Assembly: GCA_017533915.1 (NCBI GenBank)
Contig: JAFWHX010000004.1
Span: forward strand, 1 to 64,000
Direction: 5' to 3'
Source: Eubacterium sp.
GTDB taxonomy: Bacteria > Bacillota > Clostridia > Peptostreptococcales > Anaerovoracaceae
Length of the DNA stretch: 64,000 bases
Below, in pieces: positions 6,249 through 19,941 of this stretch (within the stretch, counting starts at the first letter, position 1; each line of letters starts with the position of its first letter). The notes under the pieces were generated by a model, which was not told the origin of the DNA, made no database searches, and saw nothing but the letters and a program-made list of their open reading frames with translations. Made by a program: the position numbers and the translations under genes.

Positions 6249-7131
6249 TGAACCTGTGATCGCCCTAAACAAGCTCACCAAAAGCTATGGAAAGCACCGG
6301 GGGATTGAGGAAATCAGCTTTACGGTTGAGCGTGCTGAGATATTCGGCTTTATCGGCCCCAACGGGGCGGGAAAATCTACTACCATCCGCACCCTGATGG
6401 GGCTGTTGAAGCCCACCGGCGGAACCGCTTCTGTCTTTGGACTGGACTGTTGGCGGCAGGCGTCTGAGATTGCAAAGGATGTAGGGTATCTGCCCAGCGA
6501 AAACTGTTACTACAACAGCATGAAAGTCAAAGAGATGCTTCTCTATACGGCGGAACTCTACGGAGTAGACGGACATAACCGGATGGAAGCATTGGCGGAA
6601 CGGCTGAATTTAGATTTGTCCAGGAGGATCGGCGACCTGTCTTTAGGCAACAAAAAGAAAGTTGGCATTATTTCGGCCCTGCTGCCCTCCCCAAAGTTAC
6701 TTATCATGGACGAGCCTACCAGCGGCCTTGACCCGCTGATCCAGCAGACCTTTTATGACCTGTTAAAAGAAGAAAATGAGCGCGGTACGACGATTTTCCT
6801 GTCCTCCCATGTTCTAAGTGAGGTACAGAGGCTTTGTGACCGTGTAGCCATTCTGCGGGAGGGGAAGCTGATCAGTGTTCAATCCATGAAGGAACTGCGG
6901 GAAAACGGATACAAGAAAATCTCGCTGACAGCAAAAAGCGCCATTCCAGAGGATTTCTTTTCTGTTCCCGGTACGGCTAATTTAGAGTGGGACAAGAGCA
7001 AGACTTCTGTATCCTTTATGTTCAGCGGACCAGTTATGATGATTATGAACCAGCTTCATTTGCTGGAGCTGGAGGATATTTTAATTGAGGAACCGTCATT
7101 GGAAGAAGTATTCCTCCACTACTACGAATAG
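6244..7131 (+). CDS. ABC transporter ATP-binding protein
   Basis: This 295-residue ATPase belongs to the ABC-2 exporter type. It shows Walker A GPNGAGKST (residues about 38-46), a LSLGNKKKV signature, Walker B LLIMDEPTSGLD and the H-loop SSHVLSE. The C-terminal extension ends with the EEPSLEEVFLHYY motif usual in CcmA/NatA-like exporters. Two in-frame starts with identical ribosome sites exist because of the tandem duplication. The start at 6244 is likely ancestral. Translation from 6202 would add 14 residues (MSVKTQLLQGGISA). It pairs with the two permeases downstream and probably exports a drug or peptide under TetR control; the substrate is not deducible. Confidence 0.92.
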   Translation: MSEPVIALNKLTKSYGKHRGIEEISFTVERAEIFGFIGPNGAGKSTTIRTLMGLLKPTGGTASVFGLDCWRQASEIAKDVGYLPSENCYYNSMKVKEMLLYTAELYGVDGHNRMEALAERLNLDLSRRIGDLSLGNKKKVGIISALLPSPKLLIMDEPTSGLDPLIQQTFYDLLKEENERGTTIFLSSHVLSEVQRLCDRVAILREGKLISVQSMKELRENGYKKISLTAKSAIPEDFFSVPGTANLEWDKSKTSVSFMFSGPVMMIMNQLHLLELEDILIEEPSLEEVFLHYYE

Positions 7132-8822: not shown

Positions 8823-9151
8823 AAAAGCGGATTGCAGAGCTTGAGTCTGCGCAGACGGAATACAAAAAGAAAGAAAACGACGCGTCCCGTTTTGCGGCAT
8901 TGGTAGAGCGCTATATCGACATCCAGGAGCTTACGGCTCCATTGCTTCACACATTGATTGATCATGTAGTGATTCATGAGAAAGAAGAGCTTGATGGTGA
9001 AGTGATTATGCGGGGGGAGATCTACTACCGCTTCATCGGTAAGGTCGGCGATGAGAACGGGGATGATATATGCGCCGAACCCACAAAAAAAGCAAAAACA
9101 CACTATTACACGACTCATTCAGGGCAAAACGGTGCGCAATGTGCGGTATAA
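8795..9151 (+). pseudogene. C-terminal remnant of a large serine recombinase
   Basis: Frame 2 reads AAVRYRDVKKRIAELESAQ, a coiled coil, and continues to LLHTLIDHVVIHEKEELDGE, VIMRGEIYYRFIGKVG. This matches the usual end of TndX/TnpX-like recombinases (DUF4368 region, FIDKVxVHEx...YFxFIGxx). The catalytic, recombinase and zinc domains are absent. The fragment follows the truncated KTR gene without an intervening start codon. A TTG at 8900 could allow translation, but function is unlikely. Confidence 0.7.
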
Positions 9152-9314
9152 CCCGGTTATCGTGAAGTATCCTTTCTGGCAGATGACGAATGACAACCCG
9201 AAGGCTGTCTATGCCTGCCTGAATTACAATGAAGCCTACTGCCCGAAGCAGATCGAATCGCAGTCCATCTGCATAGACGGGGACAGCCAAGATGTGATTG
9301 CACGTCTGCTGTAA
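9051..9314 (+). CDS. Hypothetical small protein
   Basis: The 87-codon frame overlaps the recombinase remnant. Its composition is protein-like (VRYNPVIVKYPFWQMTNDNP, then AVYACLNYNEAYCPKQIESQ). The family is not recognised. Start choice is uncertain: ATGs at 9051 and 9063 both lack a clear ribosome site. A terminator-like hairpin follows at 9337. It could be an intact small gene of the mobile element or itself a remnant. Confidence 0.35.
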   Translation: MRTGMIYAPNPQKKQKHTITRLIQGKTVRNVRYNPVIVKYPFWQMTNDNPKAVYACLNYNEAYCPKQIESQSICIDGDSQDVIARLL

Positions 9315-9336
9315 AACCAGAAGATTGAAAAAACAG

Positions 9337-9384
9337 TCCGGAGTCAGATGTCGATTTTTTCGATGTCCGGCTCCGGATTATTTT
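9337..9384 (+). terminator. Hairpin terminator
   Basis: TCCGGAG (9337-9343) pairs with CTCCGGA (9371-9377) and is followed by TTATTTTT. It closes the remnant region before the hairpin array. The loop is long (27 nt), so efficiency is uncertain. Confidence 0.5.
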
Positions 9385-9500
9385 TCAAGAATTTGCCGAA
9401 AAGCAAAATAAGCGTTTTGCAAAAACGCGCAGCTCACACAAAGTGTGATCTCTGGGTTTGGGAGGTGTTCCCAACGAGCCGGTGCAGAAATTGCGCGCAG

Positions 9501-9718
9501 GTCCGGATCTGTACACTGCTTGCTAAGTAGTGAACAGCCATCCGGACATGCTCGCAAATTTGCAGATAGCGTTTTGCACCCTGCTTGCCAGGTAGCAAAA
9601 CCTGTAAGTGTCTGCCCTGCTTGCAAAGTAGCAGACTCTTACTAATCTGCATTGCTTGCCAAGTAGTATATGGATGGCAATGCACTGCTTGCCAGGTACT
9701 GAAAGCCTGGCAAAGCAG
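9501..9718. repeat. Array of five hairpins with conserved TGCTTGC(C)AAGTA core and unit-specific stems
   Basis: Five copies of a core close to TGCTTGCNARGTA lie at about 9518, 9583, 9618, 9652 and 9686. The bases flanking each core differ from unit to unit, yet four units have complementary flanks. Unit 1 pairs GTCCGGAT (9501-9508) with ATCCGGAC (9540-9547), CTGT with ACAG and CACT with AGTG. Unit 2 pairs GTTTTGC with GCAAAAC (9571-9601). Unit 3 pairs GTCTGC with GCAGAC (9610-9636). Unit 4 pairs GCATTGC with GCAATGC (9649-9683). Unit 5 instead folds its core against CCTGGCAAAGCA (to 9717). No convincing gene covers this stretch. A sixth related unit is at 5465-5508. Confidence 0.8.
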
Positions 9719-9939
9719 GACGTTGACGCGAAAAACCGTCAACAGGTTTCAGATGGATTGACAGCAGAAAAGCGCGCTGGTACAATATCGGTGGTCCTGA
9801 AAAGGATCATTTTGGGGAATCAGGTTTATCTGATTCGTTAATCGGTTCCCGTCCCTGAGATTGCCGGGTTCCGATATGGTATCTGTCCGATAGGATGGAT
9901 ACGGTAAGGCTGCATCAGGGCGGCCGTCGGCTGTTTGAT

Positions 9940-10020
9940 AGCCGGGTTACATAGAAGCATATCAGCAAAGGCGGGCTTCCATGCTCGTCTGTTGGTGCGT
10001 TTCTATGTGACCCGGCTCTT
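9940..10020 (+). promoter_or_regulatory. Long leader hairpin upstream of the tnpW/tnpX-like genes
   Basis: AGCCGGGTTACATAGAAGC (9940-9958) pairs with GTTTCTATGTGACCCGGCT (9999-10017), the two non-Watson-Crick positions being possible G-U pairs. The stem is followed by CTTTTTG. It sits 40 bases before the first gene of the recombination module and could act as a terminator, attenuator or recombinase-end structure. A smaller stem (GAATCAG, 9817-9823, with CTGATTC, 9830-9836) lies upstream. The rest of 9719-9940 shows no gene. Confidence 0.6.
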
Positions 10021-10058
10021 TTTGTCCGGAATATTCAAAAAGAAGGAGAACAGCCAAA

Positions 10059-10253
10059 ATGAGAAACGTAAGAATCAACGAGGCCGGTCACATCGTGGTG
10101 AAGAATCTCTCGGCATATTGGATCCCGGAGATCAAGGTCGAACGCGAGATGCACGGAACCGTCTACACCGTCACCGGCAGCTATGAAGGAACGGAGCTTC
10201 CTGACCGGAAGCTCACCCGCATCCTGCTGAAAAATGTGGAGGATGCCAAATGA
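10059..10253 (+). CDS. TnpW-like small transposon protein
   Basis: This 64-residue protein lies directly upstream of a TnpX-type recombinase. Its central part (MHGTVYTVTGSYEGTELPDRK, then LTRILLKN) has the pattern of TnpW-like proteins encoded before TnpX-type recombinases, a short beta strand of the form GxxYxVxxxF followed by a basic helix. AGAAGGAG precedes the ATG. Its stop overlaps the first ATG of the recombinase gene (ATGA), which suggests translational coupling. The function of TnpW proteins is not established; the assignment rests on context and a short motif. Confidence 0.55.
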   Translation: MRNVRINEAGHIVVKNLSAYWIPEIKVEREMHGTVYTVTGSYEGTELPDRKLTRILLKNVEDAK

Positions 10254-11968
10254 CAAACAGGAAGAATACTGCTATAATGGCACCAGCCAATTCTGTGCAG
10301 ACAGTTGCCCCCGAAAAGGAGGAAACAGAAATGTTAAGGGCAACTGATAAGATCACAGCACTATACTGCCGTCTGTCCCAGGAGGATGAAAGACTTGGCG
10401 AGTCGCTGTCCATTGAAAACCAGAAACGTATCTTACAGTCGTATTGTAAAGAACATCATTTCCCAAATCCGGTCTTCTTCGTAGATGACGGATACAGCGG
10501 AACCGATTTTGACCGTCCCGGCTTCCAGGCCATGCTGAACGAAATCGAATCTGACCATGTGGCGGTGCTGCTGACAAAGGACCTTTCCCGTCTGGGGCGT
10601 AATTCCACGATGACGGGGATGTTCATCAACATCACTTTTGCAAAACACGATGTCCGCTACATTGCCATCAACGACAATTTCGATTCTGCCAATCAGAACA
10701 GTGTGGACAATGACTTCGCGGGGATCCGGATGTGGTTCAACGAATTCTATGCCAGAGACACCAGCCGGAAGATCCGTGCGGTGAACAAGGCCAAGGGTGA
10801 ACGTGGAGAGCATCTGACGACCAACCCGCCCTTCGGGTATCTCAAAGATCCGGAGAATCCCAAACAGTGGATCGTAGATGAAGAGGCCGCCAAGGTGGTC
10901 AGACACATCTTTGATCTTTGTATGGAAGGCCGGGGGCCGATGCAGATTGCAAAGCAGCTGACCGAAGAGAAGGTGTTGACCATTACGGCGTATACCTTGA
11001 AATCGGGAAGGAAGGCATTGGGGCCTGAACCTGCCGATCCCTTCCGGTGGTCTGCAGATTCTGTCATCGCCATTCTCGAGACACGCGACTATACCGGCTG
11101 CACCGTGAACTTCAAGACCTACACCAATTCGATCTGGGATAAGAAGACCAGGGAGAATCCTGTTGAAAATCAGGCTATCTTCTACAACACCCAACCGGCG
11201 ATCATTGAACCGGAGGTGTTCGAAAAGGTCCAGGAGATCCGGTCACAGCGACACCGCCGGTCAAAGACGGGCAAGTCTCATATGTTCTCCGGGTTAGTCT
11301 TTTGCGCAGACTGCAAGTCCAGGATGTACTACTGTACTACAAGCTACTACGAAGAGCGGCAGGACCATTTCGTTTGTTCGAATTACCGCAGCAACACCGG
11401 GTCGTGCTCGGCCCATTTCATCCGGGCAGTCGTTTTGGAACAAATGGTCTGGGAGCATGTCAAGGAAATCATCTGGTACGTAGGCCACCATGAAGGTCAT
11501 TTCAGGTCAATTATGGAGGCTGGGCTGCAAAGTGAAAGCAAAGAGATCCTTCGTTCTAAGCAGAAGCAGCTTGAAAGGGACGAGAAGCGTATCGCTGAAT
11601 TGGATCGCCTTTTCATCCGTCTCTATGAGGACAATGTGGCATCCCGGATCAGTGATGACCGTTTCGCCATGATGAGCCGGGCCTATGAGGATGAGCAGGA
11701 TGAACTGAAAGCGGAAGCAGAAGTCTTACGGCAGGAAATCGAAACACAGGAACAACAGAACCAGAATCTTGAACTTTTCATTCAGAAGGTCAGGAAGTAC
11801 GCGGATATGACCGAATTGACGCCTTACGCGGCCCATGAGCTGATCAAGGCAATCTATGTCGGGGCTCCGGATAAAAGCACCGGGAAACGCCGCCAGAGCA
11901 TCCATATTTGCTATGACTTAATCGGGTTCATCCCGCTGAGTGAACTGATGGAACAGGAAATGGCATGA
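10250..11968 (+). CDS. TnpX/TndX-like large serine recombinase
   Basis: This large serine recombinase would excise and integrate an element through a Ser-linked intermediate. The resolvase domain (from KITALYCRLSQEDE, catalytic Ser in CRLSQ) includes LTKDLSRLGRN. A recombinase domain with PPFGYLKDPENP follows. Next are a zinc-ribbon with CADC and a second Cys cluster (FVCSNYRSNTGSCSAHFI), and a C-terminal coiled coil ending in the usual terminal domain. The size (572 residues) fits the Tn1549/Tn5397 type. The ATG at 10250 overlaps the upstream stop codon and has GGAGG before it. A second ATG at 10331, preceded by AAAGGAGG, would give the shorter MLRATDKITALY start common in the family. Confidence 0.9.
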   Translation: MTNRKNTAIMAPANSVQTVAPEKEETEMLRATDKITALYCRLSQEDERLGESLSIENQKRILQSYCKEHHFPNPVFFVDDGYSGTDFDRPGFQAMLNEIESDHVAVLLTKDLSRLGRNSTMTGMFINITFAKHDVRYIAINDNFDSANQNSVDNDFAGIRMWFNEFYARDTSRKIRAVNKAKGERGEHLTTNPPFGYLKDPENPKQWIVDEEAAKVVRHIFDLCMEGRGPMQIAKQLTEEKVLTITAYTLKSGRKALGPEPADPFRWSADSVIAILETRDYTGCTVNFKTYTNSIWDKKTRENPVENQAIFYNTQPAIIEPEVFEKVQEIRSQRHRRSKTGKSHMFSGLVFCADCKSRMYYCTTSYYEERQDHFVCSNYRSNTGSCSAHFIRAVVLEQMVWEHVKEIIWYVGHHEGHFRSIMEAGLQSESKEILRSKQKQLERDEKRIAELDRLFIRLYEDNVASRISDDRFAMMSRAYEDEQDELKAEAEVLRQEIETQEQQNQNLELFIQKVRKYADMTELTPYAAHELIKAIYVGAPDKSTGKRRQSIHICYDLIGFIPLSELMEQEMA

Positions 11969-12052
11969 CCCGAAGATCATGCCATTCCTGAAAACTATAA
12001 AACTTTCTTACGAGGGGCGGCCTTTTGAAGCCTTATGTTTTATCCTAATTTC

Positions 12053-13151: not shown

Positions 13152-13281
13152 AATAATTAAAAATAATTAAATGAGATAAAGAGGGCTTGTCAATAGCGAA
13201 AACACGATCTAAACATTGATATATCAAGCATAAGACGATGTAACGCTTCAAATGTTAACGTTTTAATTATTTTTAATTATT
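13152..13281. repeat. 20-bp perfect inverted repeat flanking the rep promoter region
   Basis: AATAATTAAAAATAATTAAA (13152-13171) is exactly complementary to bases 13262-13281. The right arm ends in the -35 box of the rep promoter. The 90 bases between contain AACGCTTCAAATGTTAACGTT. It may be an operator pair, part of an origin or a cruciform. The 13043-13345 stretch has no gene. Confidence 0.7.
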
Positions 13282-13308
13282 GACATCGTGTTCATATCAA
13301 GTTACAAT
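13280..13308 (+). promoter_or_regulatory. Promoter of the rep gene
   Basis: TTGACA (13280-13285) and TACAAT (13303-13308) are separated by exactly 17 bases and lie 37 bases upstream of the start codon at 13346. Confidence 0.8.
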
Positions 13309-13345
13309 ATGTATGAAGAAATATAGAGGAAGGAGATCATTCGAA

Positions 13346-14134
13346 ATGTCTGATTTTCAAGCAAACTTAAGAACTTTCATGTTAACGCAAGATTTCGATC
13401 CAGAGCATTGGAATTGGGATCCGAACGAACTAAATGCGCTGTCTTCCTGTAAGGATACAGCAAAAGCTATAGTTGCACGATTTGCTGCTGCAGGGGTTCC
13501 GATCGAGGAAGCCTATGCAATCGAACACAACAAGGATGAAAAAGAAATATGGGATGAATATCATAATGTGTACATCAGCGAAGTATCTGGGCGACACATA
13601 CATTTTGTTGCAAAACTTGGAAAAGACAATGCATTGCCGCTGGAACGCATAGCCTTAATTGCTGGCGTTAATCCGGCCTTCATTGAAAGGCCAAGACCTG
13701 GGCGTTACGCATACGACAACATGCTCTCCTATCTGATCCACATAAAGTACCCATCAAAATATCAGTATGATCCGCAAGCAGTCATCACATTAGCGGGTAA
13801 ATCTTATATGAATTATTATCGCGACAGACACAAGGCTTGGATGCAAGGCCGTGCCAAGCGTGTAGCTGCAGATAGCGAATTAAAACTCGATGAAGTCATG
13901 CAGATGATTATGGATGGCAAATTGAGCAGAAAAGATCTTTTGACTGATCCTCAGTATAAGTATGTGTACATACTAAATAAAAGAAAAATCGACACGTGGA
14001 TTAAGAACGCACTTAGTTTTCGGTTTGATCAACAACGCGCAGAAAAAGGCATGTTCGATGATGAGGATGAAATGACACGTGGCACTCAAGAAGTCTCCGC
14101 CATTATGTTAGAACATCTTAAAAACAGTATGTGA
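13346..14134 (+). CDS. Rep_2-type plasmid replication initiator
   Basis: This 262-residue protein resembles rolling-circle initiators of the pMV158 RepB/Rep_2 class. It has the HUH metal motif in GRHIHFVAKL (residues about 84-93), the family segment MLSYLIHIKYPSKYQYDP (about 126-143; compare YLTHxxNPxKYQY), and a downstream Tyr-containing stretch YMNYYRDRHKAW, whose Tyr residues are candidates for the nicking residue. Replication by this class nicks a double-strand origin near rep. The C-terminal third is helical and lacks an obvious helicase. The start is set by GGAAGGAG before ATG 13346. Iterons and an AT-rich zone upstream are unusual for this class. No copy-control gene is evident unless the next small gene serves. 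Confidence 0.75.
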   Translation: MSDFQANLRTFMLTQDFDPEHWNWDPNELNALSSCKDTAKAIVARFAAAGVPIEEAYAIEHNKDEKEIWDEYHNVYISEVSGRHIHFVAKLGKDNALPLERIALIAGVNPAFIERPRPGRYAYDNMLSYLIHIKYPSKYQYDPQAVITLAGKSYMNYYRDRHKAWMQGRAKRVAADSELKLDEVMQMIMDGKLSRKDLLTDPQYKYVYILNKRKIDTWIKNALSFRFDQQRAEKGMFDDEDEMTRGTQEVSAIMLEHLKNSM

Positions 14135-14196
14135 AGAGCTTGCATGTGTTATAATAATTTAAGTACTAATATTTCAATGGAAGGAGATGTGTTACA

Positions 14197-14598
14197 ATGG
14201 TTGATTTCGACACACTGGAACTCTTAGAAAAAATTGAACGCTTCGCTAATAAACTTAAAGAGGGAAAAGTCAAGGCTTTTTCCGAGCTTAAGCCTGAAGA
14301 TAATGATTGTGAATTTATAGTTTATGACGATAGCAAAGGATTTAGAAGTTCAGGTGATTTACAAGCGTATCCAATAGTGAGTTTTATTTTCTCTGGCGAT
14401 ATCGCGGGATATGAACCTTATAAGGGGAATAATTTCTGTGGGAAAAATTACGCAGTTATGCTCTGCGACTATGAAGGCAATTACTCTGTTGATATTGAAG
14501 AAGAACACGGTTCAGGTGAACCAGACTATACCATAACTATAGATGACTCTGGAGACTGGGGGTTCGTAATTACAAAAGATAATGGTATCCTGAGATAA
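14197..14598 (+). CDS. Hypothetical acidic protein
   Basis: This protein of 133 residues is strongly acidic, with many Asp, Glu and Gly. It has an N-terminal helix (LELLEKIERFANKLKEGKVK) and a beta-rich remainder with YDDSKGF and DDSGDWGFVITKDNG. No cysteine motif or membrane segment is seen, and the family is not recognised. AAGGAGATG lies upstream of the ATG. It sits 62 bases after rep and is closed by a terminator, so it is probably co-transcribed with rep. The charge pattern would suit a DNA-mimic or inhibitor, but this is speculation from composition alone. Confidence 0.65.
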   Translation: MVDFDTLELLEKIERFANKLKEGKVKAFSELKPEDNDCEFIVYDDSKGFRSSGDLQAYPIVSFIFSGDIAGYEPYKGNNFCGKNYAVMLCDYEGNYSVDIEEEHGSGEPDYTITIDDSGDWGFVITKDNGILR

Positions 14599-14617
14599 CT
14601 GAAGAACTCATACATGC

Positions 14618-14655
14618 AATGCTGAGAAGCGCTTATTTCGTTTCTCAGCATTTTT
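14618..14655 (+). terminator. Terminator after the acidic protein gene
   Basis: AATGCTGAGAA (14618-14628) pairs with TTTCTCAGCAT (14641-14651), then TTTTATG. The loop is 12 nt. Confidence 0.8.
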
Positions 14656-14702
14656 ATGTGAAAATAGGGTATACCCGTGACGACGACTGAGTTGAGGGGT
14701 AA

Positions 14703-14786
14703 AAGTTGTTAATTAAGAGTTGGTATTTAATTGATTAACAACTTGCATTAAAAGGCCTTGACCTTAAAATTACAACTCCGTATAAT
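14703..14786 (+). promoter_or_regulatory. Inverted repeat and promoter upstream of the resolvase
   Basis: AAGTTGTTAAT (14703-14713) is an exact inverted repeat of ATTAACAACTT (14734-14744). TTGACC (14758-14763) and TATAAT (14781-14786) follow with a 17-bp spacer. The inverted repeat may be a resolvase-binding site controlling recombination and autoregulation. Confidence 0.65.
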
Positions 14787-14821
14787 ATGAATGTGAGTTA
14801 ATGAAAAGTGAGGCCATTGAT

Positions 14822-15394
14822 ATGAGAGTCGCATATATAAGAGTCTCCACTGCCGATCAGAATGAAGACAGGCAGCGGGAAGGACTTAAAAAATATAATA
14901 TCGAGAAAGAGTTTTTCGAGAAGGTAAGCGCAAAGAACACCGACCGGAAAGAACTGAAGGCTATGATGGACTTTGTTCGTGAAGGTGACACGGTTTATAT
15001 TCATGACTTTTCAAGGCTTGCTCGTTCAACGAAAGACCTTCTTGATATCGTTGAGACGTTAAATGAGAAGGGCGTTCATCTGGTTTCGAACAAGGAGAAC
15101 GTTGATACGAGTACACCGACGGGGAAATTGATGCTTACGATGATCGGAGCGATTGCTGAATTCGAGCGTGACAATTTGCTTGAGAGGCAGAAAGAAGGTA
15201 TTGAGATTGCGAAGAGAAAGGGAAAGTACAAAGGCAGGAAACCTGTTGAGGTTGACGATGATGCTTTCGATAAGGAATACCAGGATTATATGGCACGCAG
15301 GATTTCGAAAAGTCAGATGGCAAGGAATTTGGAAATCAGCAGACCAACTTTGGAGAGAATAATGAGAGAAAAAGGTCTGCTTGAAAATAAGTAA
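14822..15394 (+). CDS. Small serine resolvase/invertase
   Basis: This 190-residue protein has the full resolvase fold. MRVAYIRVSTADQNEDRQ carries the catalytic Ser in RVSTADQ. Further elements are IHDFSRLARSTKDLLDIV and the E-helix (GAIAEFERDNLLERQKEGIE). A C-terminal helix-turn-helix ends the protein (RISKSQMARNLEISRPTLERI). ATG 14822 is preferred over 14801 because the conserved N-terminus starts here and GAGG lies upstream. Such enzymes resolve plasmid multimers or transposon cointegrates. It sits 14 bases before the MmeI-like gene, so the two may share a transcript. Confidence 0.9.
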   Translation: MRVAYIRVSTADQNEDRQREGLKKYNIEKEFFEKVSAKNTDRKELKAMMDFVREGDTVYIHDFSRLARSTKDLLDIVETLNEKGVHLVSNKENVDTSTPTGKLMLTMIGAIAEFERDNLLERQKEGIEIAKRKGKYKGRKPVEVDDDAFDKEYQDYMARRISKSQMARNLEISRPTLERIMREKGLLENK

Positions 15395-15408
15395 AGGGGA
15401 TAAGGTCT

Positions 15409-18183
15409 ATGGATATTATTGTTGCAAAGAAGGCGGCTGAAAAGTTCGCTAAGGACTGGGCTGATCGTGGTGACGAGAAGCAGGATACACAAAATTATTG
15501 GAACCAACTTTTGAGAACTGTTTTCGACGTTGAAGTTCCGGAGCAGTATATCCAATATGAAAAGCCTGTTGCTAAGGGCTTTATTGACGGATATATCGCT
15601 GATACGAAAGTTCTTATCGAGCAGAAGGGAATGAAGTTCGATCTTGATGCTAAGGAACCGAGACAAGGAAAGATGGTAACTCCGTATGAGCAGGCTCGTG
15701 ATTATGTTTCGCAGCTTGCAGTACAGGAGAAGCCGAACTTCATCGTGACCTGTAATTTCCAGACTATCAGGATTTACGACTGCAGAATACAGCCGCAGTA
15801 TGATCGCAAAACAGATACCTGGCATGCTCCGTATGAGGAGATTGAACTGAAGGATCTTCCTACTGAGTTCAGAAGGCTTGGTTTCCTGGCTAATGTTCGT
15901 GATAGAAATATAAAGAAAGAGATGGAAGTATCGATCCAGGCTGGGGATCTGGTTGGTCTCATCTATGATAAGCTTCTCAGCCAGTATCAGGATCCGGACT
16001 CAGAGGAAACGCAGAAAAGCCTTAATATGCTTTGTGTAAGGCTTGTATTCTGTTTTTACGCTGAGGACGCTGAGATCTTTAGTGAGAGGAGTACGAGCGT
16101 ATTTCACGACTATCTGAAAGCTCATAGGAATGATGCGAGGACAGCTCTGCTTAAGTTGTTCAAGATACTTGATACGAAGATAGAAGACAGGGATCCATAC
16201 GAAGATGAGGATCTTCTTGCGTTCCCGTATGTGAACGGCGGTTTATTCTCGAACGAGAATATCATTATACCGAGACTGACTCCTGAAATCGTGGATTTGA
16301 TTTTGGAAAAAGCATCTGCTGATTTCGATTGGAGCGGTATTTCGCCTACTATCTTCGGAGCGGTGTTCGAGAGCACGCTGAACCCGGAGACAAGAAGAGC
16401 GGGTGGAATGCATTACACTTCGATTGAGAATATTCATAAGGTTATCGATCCGCTGTTCCTTGATGATCTGAAGATGGAGTTCGAGCAGATTAAAAACGAT
16501 CCTGTAGAGCGTGGAAAAGTTAGAAGGTTTCAGGAATTCCAGAATAAGCTGGCTTCATTGAAATTCCTGGATCCTGCAGCAGGGAGCGGGAATTTCCTGA
16601 CTGAGTCTTATCTGAGTCTTCGCAGGCTTGAAAATCAGGTCATAGGCGAGATTTTCGGTCCTCAGATGATGCTTGTATCGCCTGATGCAGGTAAGAACCC
16701 GATCAAGGTATCTATCAATCAGTTCTATGGTATTGAGATCAATGACTTTGCTGTAACAGTCGCCCGTACGGCGATGTGGATAGCAGAAAGTCAGATGATG
16801 AAAGAAACAGAACTGATGATGTTCACGCATCTGGATTTCCTTCCTCTGAAGCAGTTCGATCAGATATGGGAAGGTAATGCTCTCAGGAAGGATTGGAACG
16901 AAGTTGTTCCGGCGAATGAACTGAATTACATCATGGGTAATCCGCCGTTTGTTGGAAGAAGATATAGAACATCTGAGCAGCAGAAAGAAGTTGCGCTTTT
17001 CTATAAGTATAAGGATGTTGATTATGTAGCATGCTGGTATGCGATTGCCTCAGATTACATGAAAAATACTGTGATAAAGGCAGCGTTCGTATCTACTAAT
17101 AGCATTTGCCAAGGCGAACAAGTGGCTCCGATATGGGGGATGATGTTCGACAAGGGGATAGTTATCAACTTCGCATACCGCACATTCATATGGGATAGCG
17201 AGGCAAGCTTGAAGGCTCATGTATACTGCGTTATTGTTGGATTTTCGTATACAGATAATAATAACAAGTATATATATGAGGTCGGAAAAACTATATCCGC
17301 TAATAATATAAATGGCTATTTGCTTGATGCACCAAACGTAATATTGACAAATAGATCTACACCGTTATGTAGCGTACCTAAAATGCAAAACGGGAATGTC
17401 CCGCTTGATGGAGATGCGCTTAAAATCGAAGCTTCTGATTACCCTGCTTTTGCAGATTGTAAGTTCGTTAAGAAGCTTATTGGCGGAAGCGAGATGTTGT
17501 ATAATCGCGATCGTTATGTTTTGTGGTTGGTAAATGCATCACCAGCAGATATAAAGGCCGATAAGAGAATTCTCGAAAGAGTTGAGATGTGCAGGGCAAA
17601 TAGGCTTGCTATGAAAGATAAGAGCAGTCAAAAACTTGCTGAGCGTCCTACAACATTTAGGGATACAAATAATCCGGAGCATTTTATTGCTATGCCGATC
17701 GTTTCAGGAGAGAGAAGAAGATACATTCCTATGGCATATTATAACGGTGATACTATACCAACAAATCAGGTGCAAATAGTTCCGGATGCTACTTTATATC
17801 ATTTAGGCGTTCTTACTTCGAATGTGCATATGGGTTGGATGCGTGCTGTATGCGGTAGGCTCAAGGGAGATTATCGTTATTCTAAGGATGTAGTTTACAA
17901 TAACTTCCCTTGGCCAAACCCAACTCCTGAACAGAAGGCTAAGATTGAAGAGACAGCACAGGCAATTCTTGATGCCAGGGCGAAGTATCCTGACTCTTCT
18001 CTTGCGGATTTGTATGATCCTTTGACCATGCCGCCTGATCTTTTGAAGGCACATCAGAATAATGATAGAGCAGTTATGGCTGCGTATGGCATCAAGAAGG
18101 GTGATCCAGAGTATTCCAGTGAGTCTGCTTGTGTAGCAATGCTGATGAAGATGTGTCAGAAACTGGTTGAAGGTGAGAAATAG
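15409..18183 (+). CDS. MmeI-like type IIL restriction-modification protein
   Basis: This 924-residue protein has the one-polypeptide architecture of MmeI-family enzymes, which cut DNA, methylate it and carry the target-recognition domain. The N-terminal PD-(D/E)xK-type nuclease has FIDGYIADTKVLIEQKG (D60, E71, K73). A helical spacer with VFCFYAEDAEIF follows. The adenine methyltransferase has LDPAAGSGNFLTE (motif I, near 385) and GNPPF (motif IV, near 511). The C-terminal recognition and helical region ends with PWPNPTPEQKAKIEETAQAIL, typical of the family. No separate methylase or specificity gene is needed or present. MmeI has 919 residues, so length is intact. It is flanked by a resolvase and a serine recombinase and is presumably mobile defence cargo. 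Confidence 0.9.
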   Translation: MDIIVAKKAAEKFAKDWADRGDEKQDTQNYWNQLLRTVFDVEVPEQYIQYEKPVAKGFIDGYIADTKVLIEQKGMKFDLDAKEPRQGKMVTPYEQARDYVSQLAVQEKPNFIVTCNFQTIRIYDCRIQPQYDRKTDTWHAPYEEIELKDLPTEFRRLGFLANVRDRNIKKEMEVSIQAGDLVGLIYDKLLSQYQDPDSEETQKSLNMLCVRLVFCFYAEDAEIFSERSTSVFHDYLKAHRNDARTALLKLFKILDTKIEDRDPYEDEDLLAFPYVNGGLFSNENIIIPRLTPEIVDLILEKASADFDWSGISPTIFGAVFESTLNPETRRAGGMHYTSIENIHKVIDPLFLDDLKMEFEQIKNDPVERGKVRRFQEFQNKLASLKFLDPAAGSGNFLTESYLSLRRLENQVIGEIFGPQMMLVSPDAGKNPIKVSINQFYGIEINDFAVTVARTAMWIAESQMMKETELMMFTHLDFLPLKQFDQIWEGNALRKDWNEVVPANELNYIMGNPPFVGRRYRTSEQQKEVALFYKYKDVDYVACWYAIASDYMKNTVIKAAFVSTNSICQGEQVAPIWGMMFDKGIVINFAYRTFIWDSEASLKAHVYCVIVGFSYTDNNNKYIYEVGKTISANNINGYLLDAPNVILTNRSTPLCSVPKMQNGNVPLDGDALKIEASDYPAFADCKFVKKLIGGSEMLYNRDRYVLWLVNASPADIKADKRILERVEMCRANRLAMKDKSSQKLAERPTTFRDTNNPEHFIAMPIVSGERRRYIPMAYYNGDTIPTNQVQIVPDATLYHLGVLTSNVHMGWMRAVCGRLKGDYRYSKDVVYNNFPWPNPTPEQKAKIEETAQAILDARAKYPDSSLADLYDPLTMPPDLLKAHQNNDRAVMAAYGIKKGDPEYSSESACVAMLMKMCQKLVEGEK

Positions 18184-18222
18184 TGTCTTGATTGTGCTTT
18201 AGTGTTTGTATAGTGACTTATT

Positions 18223-19941
18223 ATGGGAAAAAAGAAGAAAGACGGGAAGCTGAAATGCTTTCTGTATAAGCGTGTTTCGACCGGCATGCAGGTTGAAGGG
18301 TATTCGCTTGATGCTCAGGATAAGAAGTTGAGGGATTACGCTGCTTATCGAGGCATGGAAATAGTCGGTGATTACAAGGATGAAGGCGTGTCCGGGACGA
18401 GGATAAAAGGCAGAGAAGACTTCCAGAGGATGCTGCAGGCGATCCAGGACGGAGCGGATGTAGATTATGTGCTTGTATTCAAACTATCGCGTTTCGGCCG
18501 TAATGCTGCAGACGTGCTAAATTCTGTTCAGTTAATGCAGGATTACGGTGTCGAGCTGGCTTGCACTGACGATGGGATCGATACGGCACAAGGAGCAGGG
18601 AAACTGATCGTAGCGGTTCTGGCTTCTGTAGCAGAAATAGAGCGAGAGAATATTCTTGCTCAGACGATGGCTGGAAGAGAGCAGAAGGCGAGAGAAGGCA
18701 GGTGGAATGGAGGCTTTGCGCCTTATGGCTACAAGTTGGTCGATGGCGAACTTCAGATCGCCGAAGACGAGATTGATATTATTAAACTCATCTTTGACCT
18801 ATATGTTCACGAGCCGTACGGAATAGCGGGCGTTACCAAGTATCTGAACACGCACGGGTATCAGAAGAAGGTTAGAGGGAATGCCAAACTAACGTCTTTT
18901 AGTACAGGCTTTGTAAAAGGAGTGCTGGATAATCCCGTGTATTGCGGTAAGATTGCGTTCGGTCGCAGGCGTGTAGAGAAGATAGCCGGAAGTGAACGTG
19001 ACAAGCATATAGTGAGGCAGTCCGAATACAATGTGTATGAAGGTCTACATGAAGCCATCGTTTCAGAAGATCTATGGAACGAGGCCCAGAAGAAGCGTTC
19101 TGAGACAGGTCATAAGACTGAGAAGTTCATCAACAAGGATAGAGTTCATCTACTCTCAGGTTTGCTCAAGTGTCCTGTATGCGGTGCAGGTATGTATGGA
19201 AACATGAACCGCAAAAAGAAGCGAGGAGACGAGTACTATACCCCGAATTACTTCTACGCATGCAAGCACAGACTGAATGTTGGTGGACACAAGTGCGATT
19301 ATCATCATCAGTGGAATGAGGAAGAGGTAAACAAGCAGGTCTTGGACGTGGTTGTGAAGGTTCTTGATGATGATATGCTCAAGGAGAAAATGATAGAGTG
19401 GTTCGGCTTGGACATTGACGACTCCGATCTGAGAAAGAATATCGAGAAACTGACTCTCACTATTGCGAACAAGAGGAAGCGTATTTCAAAACTCGGACAG
19501 CAGCAAGACCAGCTATCTCTTGATGATCCTATGTACGACGAGAAGTTCGACGAGCTACAAAAGCGTATTGACGGTTTCTATGATGATATCGTACATCTCG
19601 GTAAGGAGCAGGCTAATCTCGAACAGCAGCTTGACGAGGAGAACAAGGAGAAGGCCAGACGGAATATGATGAGTGCTGAGGCGTATGTCGAAGCGTATAA
19701 AGCGCTTTTACCGTTCGGAATATCTGAAGCCGTAGACAGAGACATGCTCAGGAGTCTGATAGATAAGATCGAGATCTTCAAAGAAAGACAGGAAGACGGT
19801 CGGATCGTGAAGAAAATCTGGTTCAAAGCACCGATCGATTTGAACGAAGAAACCATCGCGGAACTGAGAGAAAACGGGTGGGACTATGAGAGTAGCGTGG
19901 AGTGCGTTTGCCTGTTGAGCAACAAAAACGTTAAGCAGTAA
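18223..19941 (+). CDS. Large serine recombinase/integrase
   Basis: This 572-residue site-specific recombinase has a resolvase domain with catalytic Ser in YKRVSTGMQVEGYSLDAQ, LVFKLSRFGRNAADV and the AEIERENIL helix. A recombinase domain follows (GFAPYGYKLVDGEL). A zinc ribbon holds CPVCGAG and the later CKHRLNVGGHKC. A coiled coil spans about residues 405-480, before a terminal domain. It ends WDYESSVECVCLLSN, similar to the peptide at the very left of the window (HVETVTLLSH). The start is uncertain because only a weak ribosome site precedes ATG 18223. It is probably the integrase of the segment carrying rep, resolvase and the MmeI-like gene. It is not a close relative of the TnpX-like protein. 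Confidence 0.9.
   Translation: MGKKKKDGKLKCFLYKRVSTGMQVEGYSLDAQDKKLRDYAAYRGMEIVGDYKDEGVSGTRIKGREDFQRMLQAIQDGADVDYVLVFKLSRFGRNAADVLNSVQLMQDYGVELACTDDGIDTAQGAGKLIVAVLASVAEIERENILAQTMAGREQKAREGRWNGGFAPYGYKLVDGELQIAEDEIDIIKLIFDLYVHEPYGIAGVTKYLNTHGYQKKVRGNAKLTSFSTGFVKGVLDNPVYCGKIAFGRRRVEKIAGSERDKHIVRQSEYNVYEGLHEAIVSEDLWNEAQKKRSETGHKTEKFINKDRVHLLSGLLKCPVCGAGMYGNMNRKKKRGDEYYTPNYFYACKHRLNVGGHKCDYHHQWNEEEVNKQVLDVVVKVLDDDMLKEKMIEWFGLDIDDSDLRKNIEKLTLTIANKRKRISKLGQQQDQLSLDDPMYDEKFDELQKRIDGFYDDIVHLGKEQANLEQQLDEENKEKARRNMMSAEAYVEAYKALLPFGISEAVDRDMLRSLIDKIEIFKERQEDGRIVKKIWFKAPIDLNEETIAELRENGWDYESSVECVCLLSNKNVKQ

Follow-up and report, generated by a model that had tools for sequence, protein, structure and literature searches.

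A minimal integrative element with a repeat array at its left end

When analyzing a stretch of 64,000 nucleotides from Eubacterium sp. (the window), we delimited an integrative element of only 2.6 kb (9411 to 12016, + strand, ends approximate), which is present in one copy in its own genome. Its extent is given by homology blocks shared with three other loci (L037, L044, and L046), which run to a common right end, ...TTCTTACGAGGG (12016), while the flanks differ. The extreme left end is occupied by an oriT-like array of short repeated cores preceded by a leader of hairpins. Apart from these, the element holds only a second structured region, a 64-aa open reading frame (ORF), and a recombinase gene, and it has no relaxase gene. 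A promoter-like sequence, TTGACA-17-TACAAT (9758 to 9786, +; one found, with a mean of 0.7 in shuffled sequences), is followed by the second structured region, called RNA B here (9790 to 10030, +; fold z score −8.9), which stands behind a promoter-like site of its own and ends in a long hairpin and a T-run. The 64-aa ORF (10059 to 10253, +), named TnpW in a preliminary description of this DNA, is indeed there and has no family match. The TnpX unit described beside the array was confirmed at the domain level: the large serine recombinase (10250 to 11968, +) has Resolvase, Recombinase, Zn_ribbon_recom, and DUF4368 domains and is TnpX-like.

The surroundings contain further traces of mobile DNA. 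Just 5' of the element, the translation of 8900 to 9314 reads as the C-terminal remnant of a serine recombinase. Behind the element, 13280 to 19938 encodes a weak Rep_OBD protein, a resolvase, an MmeI-type restriction enzyme, and a second large serine recombinase, which is probably another mobile island.

Structure of the array and its leader

The core, TGCTTGCNARGTA, occurs five times on the + strand, at 9517 to 9529 (core 1), 9582 to 9594 (core 2), 9618 to 9630 (core 3), 9653 to 9665 (core 4), and 9686 to 9698 (core 5), and a degenerate sixth core, TGCTCGC, lies at 9549, 3' of the first stem. The spacing is 33 to 36 bases. Five repeated cores had been claimed, and they hold up against chance: a search tolerating one mismatch finds no further copy in the 64 kb, and shuffled sequences gave a mean of 0.45 and a maximum of 2 matches, with none of 100 reaching five. 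The 13-base core is near-invariant in every unit, including those in which no repeat ends 2 bases 5' of it. A chromosomal repeat family was considered and rejected, with the 14-base core found in 36 of 296 genomes of the same family, compared with about 23 for a reversed control, and in more than two copies only in its own genome; the extra core elsewhere in that genome (L001) is a lone match with no leader or neighboring cores. A protein-coding reading also appears unlikely: the array is overlapped by short ORFs in both orientations, and whole-unit loss and folding argue against it. The repeats of type III toxin-antitoxin systems were another candidate, given the spacing of 33 to 36 bases; this candidate was dropped, with units that differ in their stems and no toxin-like gene recognized adjacent.

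The preliminary description had the feature start at 9501, but the conserved feature begins at about 9411, with a leader of three hairpins on the + strand. Hairpin 1 (9412 to 9428, from the fold) pairs GCGTTTT with AAAACGC, has a different stem in homologs (GCGT-GAAA-ACGC), and is terminator-like on the minus strand. Hairpin 2 (9434 to 9448) pairs TCACAC with GTGTGA around a 3-base loop, and hairpin 3 (9454 to 9480) reads GGGTTTGGGA..TCCCAACGAGCC, a motif with a single match in the window. In the array proper, a stem GTCCGGAT/ATCCGGAC encloses the core at 9517 within an outer stem (9493 to 9559, +, from the fold), with the TGCTCGC copy just 3'. Folding and alignment place a hairpin GTTGACG/CGTCAAC at 9722 to 9743 (+), which closes the array; a T-run follows it in several homologs, and it has no terminator score in the window.

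Taken as a whole, the + strand from 9410 to 9762 folds into a chain of hairpins, with a z score of −7.7 against shuffles under RNA parameters and −9.6 as single-stranded DNA under DNA parameters; the minus strand folded as RNA gives −6.2. The four stem pairs listed in the preliminary description are all present, and single array stems are modest evidence each. The best enclosing stem was equaled in 2, 15, and 18 of 400 flank shuffles for cores 1, 2, and 3, respectively, and was nonsignificant for cores 4 and 5 (101 and 329 of 400), in a test that left out the stem of core 4 which overlaps the core itself. The cores had been described as presented in loops; in the fold, core 5 sits in a hairpin arm.

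Homologous arrays in other genomes

Searching with a DNA pattern of two cores, we obtained one viral contig (L035) and 18 genome stretches, of which 12 are homologs and six (L036, L038, L041, L048, L049, and L050) were judged unrelated by eye and dropped. The homologs come from Lachnospiraceae, Oscillospiraceae, Clostridia/Clostridiales, Erysipelotrichaceae, and Solobacterium, many of them from the ruminant gut. No match of 9400 to 10060 was found by blastn in plasmid or phage records. Homology starts with hairpin 1 (9411 to 9412 in the window), runs through the three-hairpin leader, the array, and the closing hairpin, and goes on into the promoter-like sequence and RNA B; the homologs share no sequence upstream of the array. 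A diverged version of RNA B is found in L040, L045, L047, and L051. In L035 and L045, the array module lies 5' of a different serine-recombinase operon. L042 and L047 have a window-type array and a shortened RNA B followed by the C-terminal end of that other recombinase, and they are apparent deletion remnants.

Array units are gained and lost whole among the homologs. L053, for example, lacks exactly one core-to-core interval of 34 bases compared with L044, with near-identical flanks, for which slippage on the 13-base direct repeat is an equal explanation. The array stems are mostly kept as sequence among orthologs and hardly covary, so the compensation seen by eye lies mainly between units.

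The leader behaves differently. For covariation, we used 29 leaders (13 of window type and 16 others) aligned by a covariance model, R1, which covers the leader only, was trained on 12 array loci, and leaves hairpin 1 unmodeled. The structure of 14 pairs was 95.9% paired, compared with 81.1% in shuffles, with 55 double-change cells compared with 14.5; no shuffle out of 500 equaled the leaders on any of the five measures used, and pairing dropped to 35 to 53% when the structure was slid along the alignment. All six pairs of hairpin 2 show two-sided changes among the 29 leaders. An alignment fitted to R1 favors the structure, but the variable hairpin 2 stems can be read without it: CAAAGAT/ATCTTTG, CGCAGAAT/ATTCTGCG, CAGCTCCA/TGGAGCTG, and TCACAC/GTGTGA. 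The leader hairpins thus covary strongly between homologs. Of the preliminary interpretation, a recurring core on a folded strand, within a TnpX-like element, is supported. One of the two outcomes named beforehand as contradicting it, stem sequence kept rather than pairing, is largely what the array stems show; the other, a lack of significant covariation, does not apply to the leader hairpins.

Leader relatives beside relaxase genes

The covariance search suggested in the preliminary description was made with the leader model. Own genome included, R1 matched 4 of 393 genomes of the same order and 6 of 391 genomes of the class at E values of up to 0.001. Besides the window, there were nine places. 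Three of them (L068, L074, and L076) start where a relaxase gene ends, and two (L070 and L075) come after a small ORF, a putative tnpV, which in L070 has no NCBIfam match. The sequence TGC[TC][TC]GC follows the leader shortly 3' in eight of the nine places, and the ninth (L075) has AGCTTGC. When R1 was run over 40 loci (228,546 bases), most of them selected for holding a relaxase, it gave 28 matches at E values of up to 1, including 16 at up to 0.01. On the same strand, GCT[TC]GC was found within 110 bases 3' of 27 of the 28 matches but of only 460 of 5,600 random stretches of the same loci. Sixteen modules have a relaxase match 45 to 237 bases 5' of them. The relaxase of L076 belongs to PF03432, and a search with it matched 87 of 341 genomes of the class at E values of up to 1e-20.

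The core itself resembles relaxase nic sites. The nic site of Tn1549 is listed as RYGCTTG|C and that of pRJ6 as TGCTTG|CCA in the compilation of PMC7755788. Each of the five window cores contains TGCTTGC and with it the TGCTTG|C motif. Cores 2, 4, and 5 fit the pRJ6 string (three of the five read TGCTTGCCA, core 2 among them), and all five have C or T in place of the purine of the Tn1549 motif. At the relaxase loci, an inverted repeat ends 2 bases 5' of TGCTTGC in 19 of 30 cases, compared with 167 of 18,000 random positions, when the repeat had to have 7 or more pairs, no more than one mismatch, and a loop of 2 to 12 bases; 11 of the 30 loci failed this strict test. A repeat ending 3 bases 5' scores in 15 of the 30 because long arms tolerate shifts. 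The bases 3' of these single-core nic sites vary among the loci. Hairpin 3 is likewise found 5' of an inverted repeat-TA-TGCTTGC in pMG2200 and L081. In pMG2200, leader hairpin 3 is followed by GGGAGTGGCTACACTCCC-TA-TGCTTGC beside mobC and the relaxase gene, which both lie downstream; in a Monoglobus plasmid, hairpin 3 and a repeat-TA-TGCTTGC likewise precede mobC and the relaxase gene. A second leader-like match in pMG2200 (L079, 549 to 674, − strand; 18.7 bits) reads GGATCAGAATATCC..GGATATTCTGATCC-AT-TGCTTGCC and is away from the one at mobC.

We looked for a relaxase that could serve the arrays. Neither by eye nor by tblastn was a relaxase seen near them, in a survey of ORFs of 75 aa or longer that reached, where sequence was available, 2.5 kb 5' and 3.5 kb 3' of each array. 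A full-length L076-type relaxase (46 to 47% identity) is encoded in 2 of the 11 array host genomes, with no leader plus core near it in the stretches examined, and 2 more of the 11 have partial matches at 29 to 42%. The genome of the window has one PF03432 relaxase, which is distant (33% identity over residues 6 to 259). Within the window, a 262-aa ORF on the minus strand (755 to 1540) matches Mob_Pre (PF01076; 6.5e-21) and encodes a MOBV-type relaxase or recombination protein, perhaps in fragmentary form.

Number and geometry of the cores

Cores were counted as occurrences of TGC[TC]TGC in the 320 bases 3' of hairpin 3, provided that the module matched a hairpin 3 regex and that its first core lay no more than 140 bases away; a contig edge or the regex removed L042, L045, and L046 from the count. 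A single core is found in each of the 16 modules that have the end of a relaxase within 700 bases 5'. Among the other 36 modules, 24 have one core, 2 have two, 2 have three, 5 have four, and 3 have five; the single-core ones include L097, L098, L100, L101, L102, and L110, which come from relaxase loci of Tn1549-like arrangement. The 12 multicore modules are 11 window-type arrays of two to five cores and L127, in which the second of two units is GCAAAACCTGTACAGGTTTGC-AT-TGCTTGC. Two modules join a window-type leader to a single core: L072, whose homology to other arrays stops just past that core, and L073, which has one repeat, GCATAGATG..CATCTATGC-AC-TGCTTGCC. A recombinase C-terminal stretch similar to that in the window lies just 5' of the L073 module. 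The array segment GCAAAACCTGTA matches the repeat GCAAAACCTGTACAGGTTTGC, which is found beside the relaxase in L095 as well as in L127.

Among the 57 TGCYYGC cores of 14 arrays, 14 are preceded by a perfect repeat of 7 bp or more that ends 2 bases 5' and 13 by one that ends 1 base 5'. The former have loops of 21 to 31 bases, which overlap another core. In the window, repeats ending 2 bases 5' are found at core 5 (GCATTGC/GCAATGC, 7 bp, loop of 21), core 4 (GCAGACTCTTACTAATCTGC, 7 positions with one mismatch, loop of 6), and the 9549 copy, while cores 1 to 3 have no convincing one.

Interpretation of the array

We propose that the array and its leader are probably an origin of transfer (oriT) with tandem nic-like sites, belonging to an integrative element without a relaxase, an iOriT. 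Our reasons are the homology of the leader with relaxase-linked modules, the fit of the core to nic motifs, the covarying hairpins, and the absence of a relaxase gene from the element. As in a MOBP oriT, hairpins stand 5' of the core, as seen from the R1 matches and the covariation; a linked relaxase gene is missing and is not required of a relaxase-less element. Several observations speak against this reading: no array was seen beside a relaxase, only 2 of the 11 array genomes have a full-length L076-type relaxase, the array stems hardly covary, the window cores lack the purine of the Tn1549 motif, 11 of the 30 relaxase loci failed the strict repeat test, the array repeats are long-looped (21 to 31 bases), unlike the short-looped ones beside relaxases, and a gap of 1 base scores nearly as often as a gap of 2 (13 and 14 of 57). 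The earlier idea of attC-like single-stranded recombination sites came close, since a relaxase processes oriT as single-stranded DNA.

The steps of transfer can be drawn from established conjugation biology; for this element, we infer nicking, helper use, excision, and the use of several cores. The recombinase would excise and circularize the 2.6-kb element. A MOBP relaxase from a coresident conjugative element would bind the hairpins of the leader or the inverted repeats and nick the + strand at TGCTTG|C, so that the 3' side, with the promoter-like site, the structured region, and the recombinase gene, would enter the recipient first. With the recombinase gene in the leading region, the element could integrate in the recipient. 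RNA B would also lie in the leading region if TGCTTG|C is nicked, and it might then serve the recombinase operon as a leader or act as a single-strand promoter or primer. Rejoining would end transfer, and if its start and end used different cores, the copy number would change.

We give about equal weight to cleavage at several cores and to the use of a single one among relics or decoys. An oriT with one working nic, at core 5 or 4, and with the other cores as duplication relics or decoys that titrate relaxase, is a serious if lesser possibility. It agrees with the repeats ending 2 bases 5', which the window has only at cores 4 and 5 and the 9549 copy, and with the single core of every module 3' of a relaxase; it is harder to reconcile with a 13-base core kept near-invariant in all units, whereas the bases 3' of a single-core nic vary. 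The tandem cores themselves probably arose by accretion of units of inverted repeat and nic; L073, with one unit, and L127, with two, resemble earlier stages of this process. More tentatively, and on balance doubtful, the oriT could be combinatorial, with multiple nic sites whose individual hairpin contexts serve several helper relaxases, and with joining by the relaxase adding or dropping units and so shifting the helper range. This idea comes from the match of GCAAAACCTGTA to the repeat GCAAAACCTGTACAGGTTTGC of L095 and L127 and from the interval of L044 that L053 lacks.

A noncoding RNA, in which the hairpins of the transcribed array would form a sponge, regulate the recombinase, or bind a protein, appears improbable. 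The RNA fold is better on the + than on the minus strand, and T-runs follow the closing hairpin in several homologs, but the fold under DNA parameters is at least as extreme. There is also no promoter-like site in 9300 to 9500, the homologs have no upstream sequence in common, and the leader relatives adjoin relaxases, with the core at a fixed short distance. Rfam 15 at gathering cutoffs gave no match over the array or the modules of 11 related loci. The family of noncoding RNAs and the generic protein-binding loop array of the preliminary description are not our leading reading, although the array may be transcribed.

Sites for the recombinase, whether attachment-site arms or accessory repeats of the TnpX-like enzyme, are very unlikely: the position of the array at the left tip of the element would suit them, but the same module stands 5' of a different serine-recombinase operon in L035 and L045, and its relatives with one core are found where relaxase genes end. 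Equally remote is an sso-like single-strand replication origin or a set of replication iterons, which would suit a hairpin-rich region of a mobile element and the weak Rep_OBD match nearby (13280 to 14131, yet outside the element), but against which stand the fit of the core to relaxase nic motifs and the position of the leader next to relaxases.

Relation to known systems and minor observations

A close known counterpart is the oriT of Tn1549, as in pMG2200, which has hairpin 3 (GGGGTTTGGGG..CCCCAACAAGC), an inverted repeat, and TGCTTGC in the manner of the window. It has one core with an adjacent short-loop repeat beside mobC and a MOBP relaxase gene, whereas the window has five cores and a degenerate one, long-loop stems, and no relaxase. 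The modules 3' of L076-type relaxases (L076, L082 to L087, L120, and L128) have hairpins 1 to 3 in the same order, a covarying hairpin 2, and a TGCTTGC nearby; they differ from the window in having exactly one core (16 of 16). An oriT with about five nic-like copies in place of one is unusual. Integron attC sites are also folded single strands with variable stems that serve as substrate, for a tyrosine integrase; they have R'/R'' boxes and are tied to cassettes; in the window, by comparison, the core is nic-like and the relatives adjoin relaxases.

Integrative and mobilizable elements (IMEs) with an oriT and without a relaxase are termed iOriT in PMC11389934. The window element resembles them in its recombinase, its putative oriT, and its lack of a relaxase, and it differs in its size of only 2.6 kb and in its tandem nic-like array; its mobilization is putative. 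IMEs of the Tn4451 family have a TnpX-type serine recombinase in common with it at the domain level, but Tn4451 encodes its own MobV relaxase, TnpZ, by the account in PMC5704250, which the window element lacks. Staphylococcal oriT mimics allow relaxase-less elements to use the relaxase of a helper, as outlined in PMC8136818 and PMC4652767. A tightly spaced tandem nic array in one oriT is not described in the relevant parts of PMC8136818, where "oriT array" denotes oligonucleotide arrays. Nor did a full-text literature search, which covered few subscription papers, find a tandem nic-like array within one oriT.

The oriTs of gut and rumen Firmicutes are hard to spot and have little sequence in common. 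The covariance model of the leader finds modules both beside relaxases and in relaxase-less elements, so pairs of helper and hitchhiker might become predictable, and the tandem nic-like array raises the question of whether multiplicity widens the helper range.

Some loci had further features. Two opposed leader-plus-core modules lie about 0.7 to 0.8 kb apart in L070, L121/L133, and L125/L134. Near a serine recombinase, L069 has tandem units of inverted repeat-TG-TGCTTGC at 6705 and 6773 (+), spaced by 68 bases. In L127, a DUF3800-XI RNA (Rfam RF02975, 64.2 bits) lies at 134 to 182 on the minus strand, about 1.3 kb away from the two-core module.
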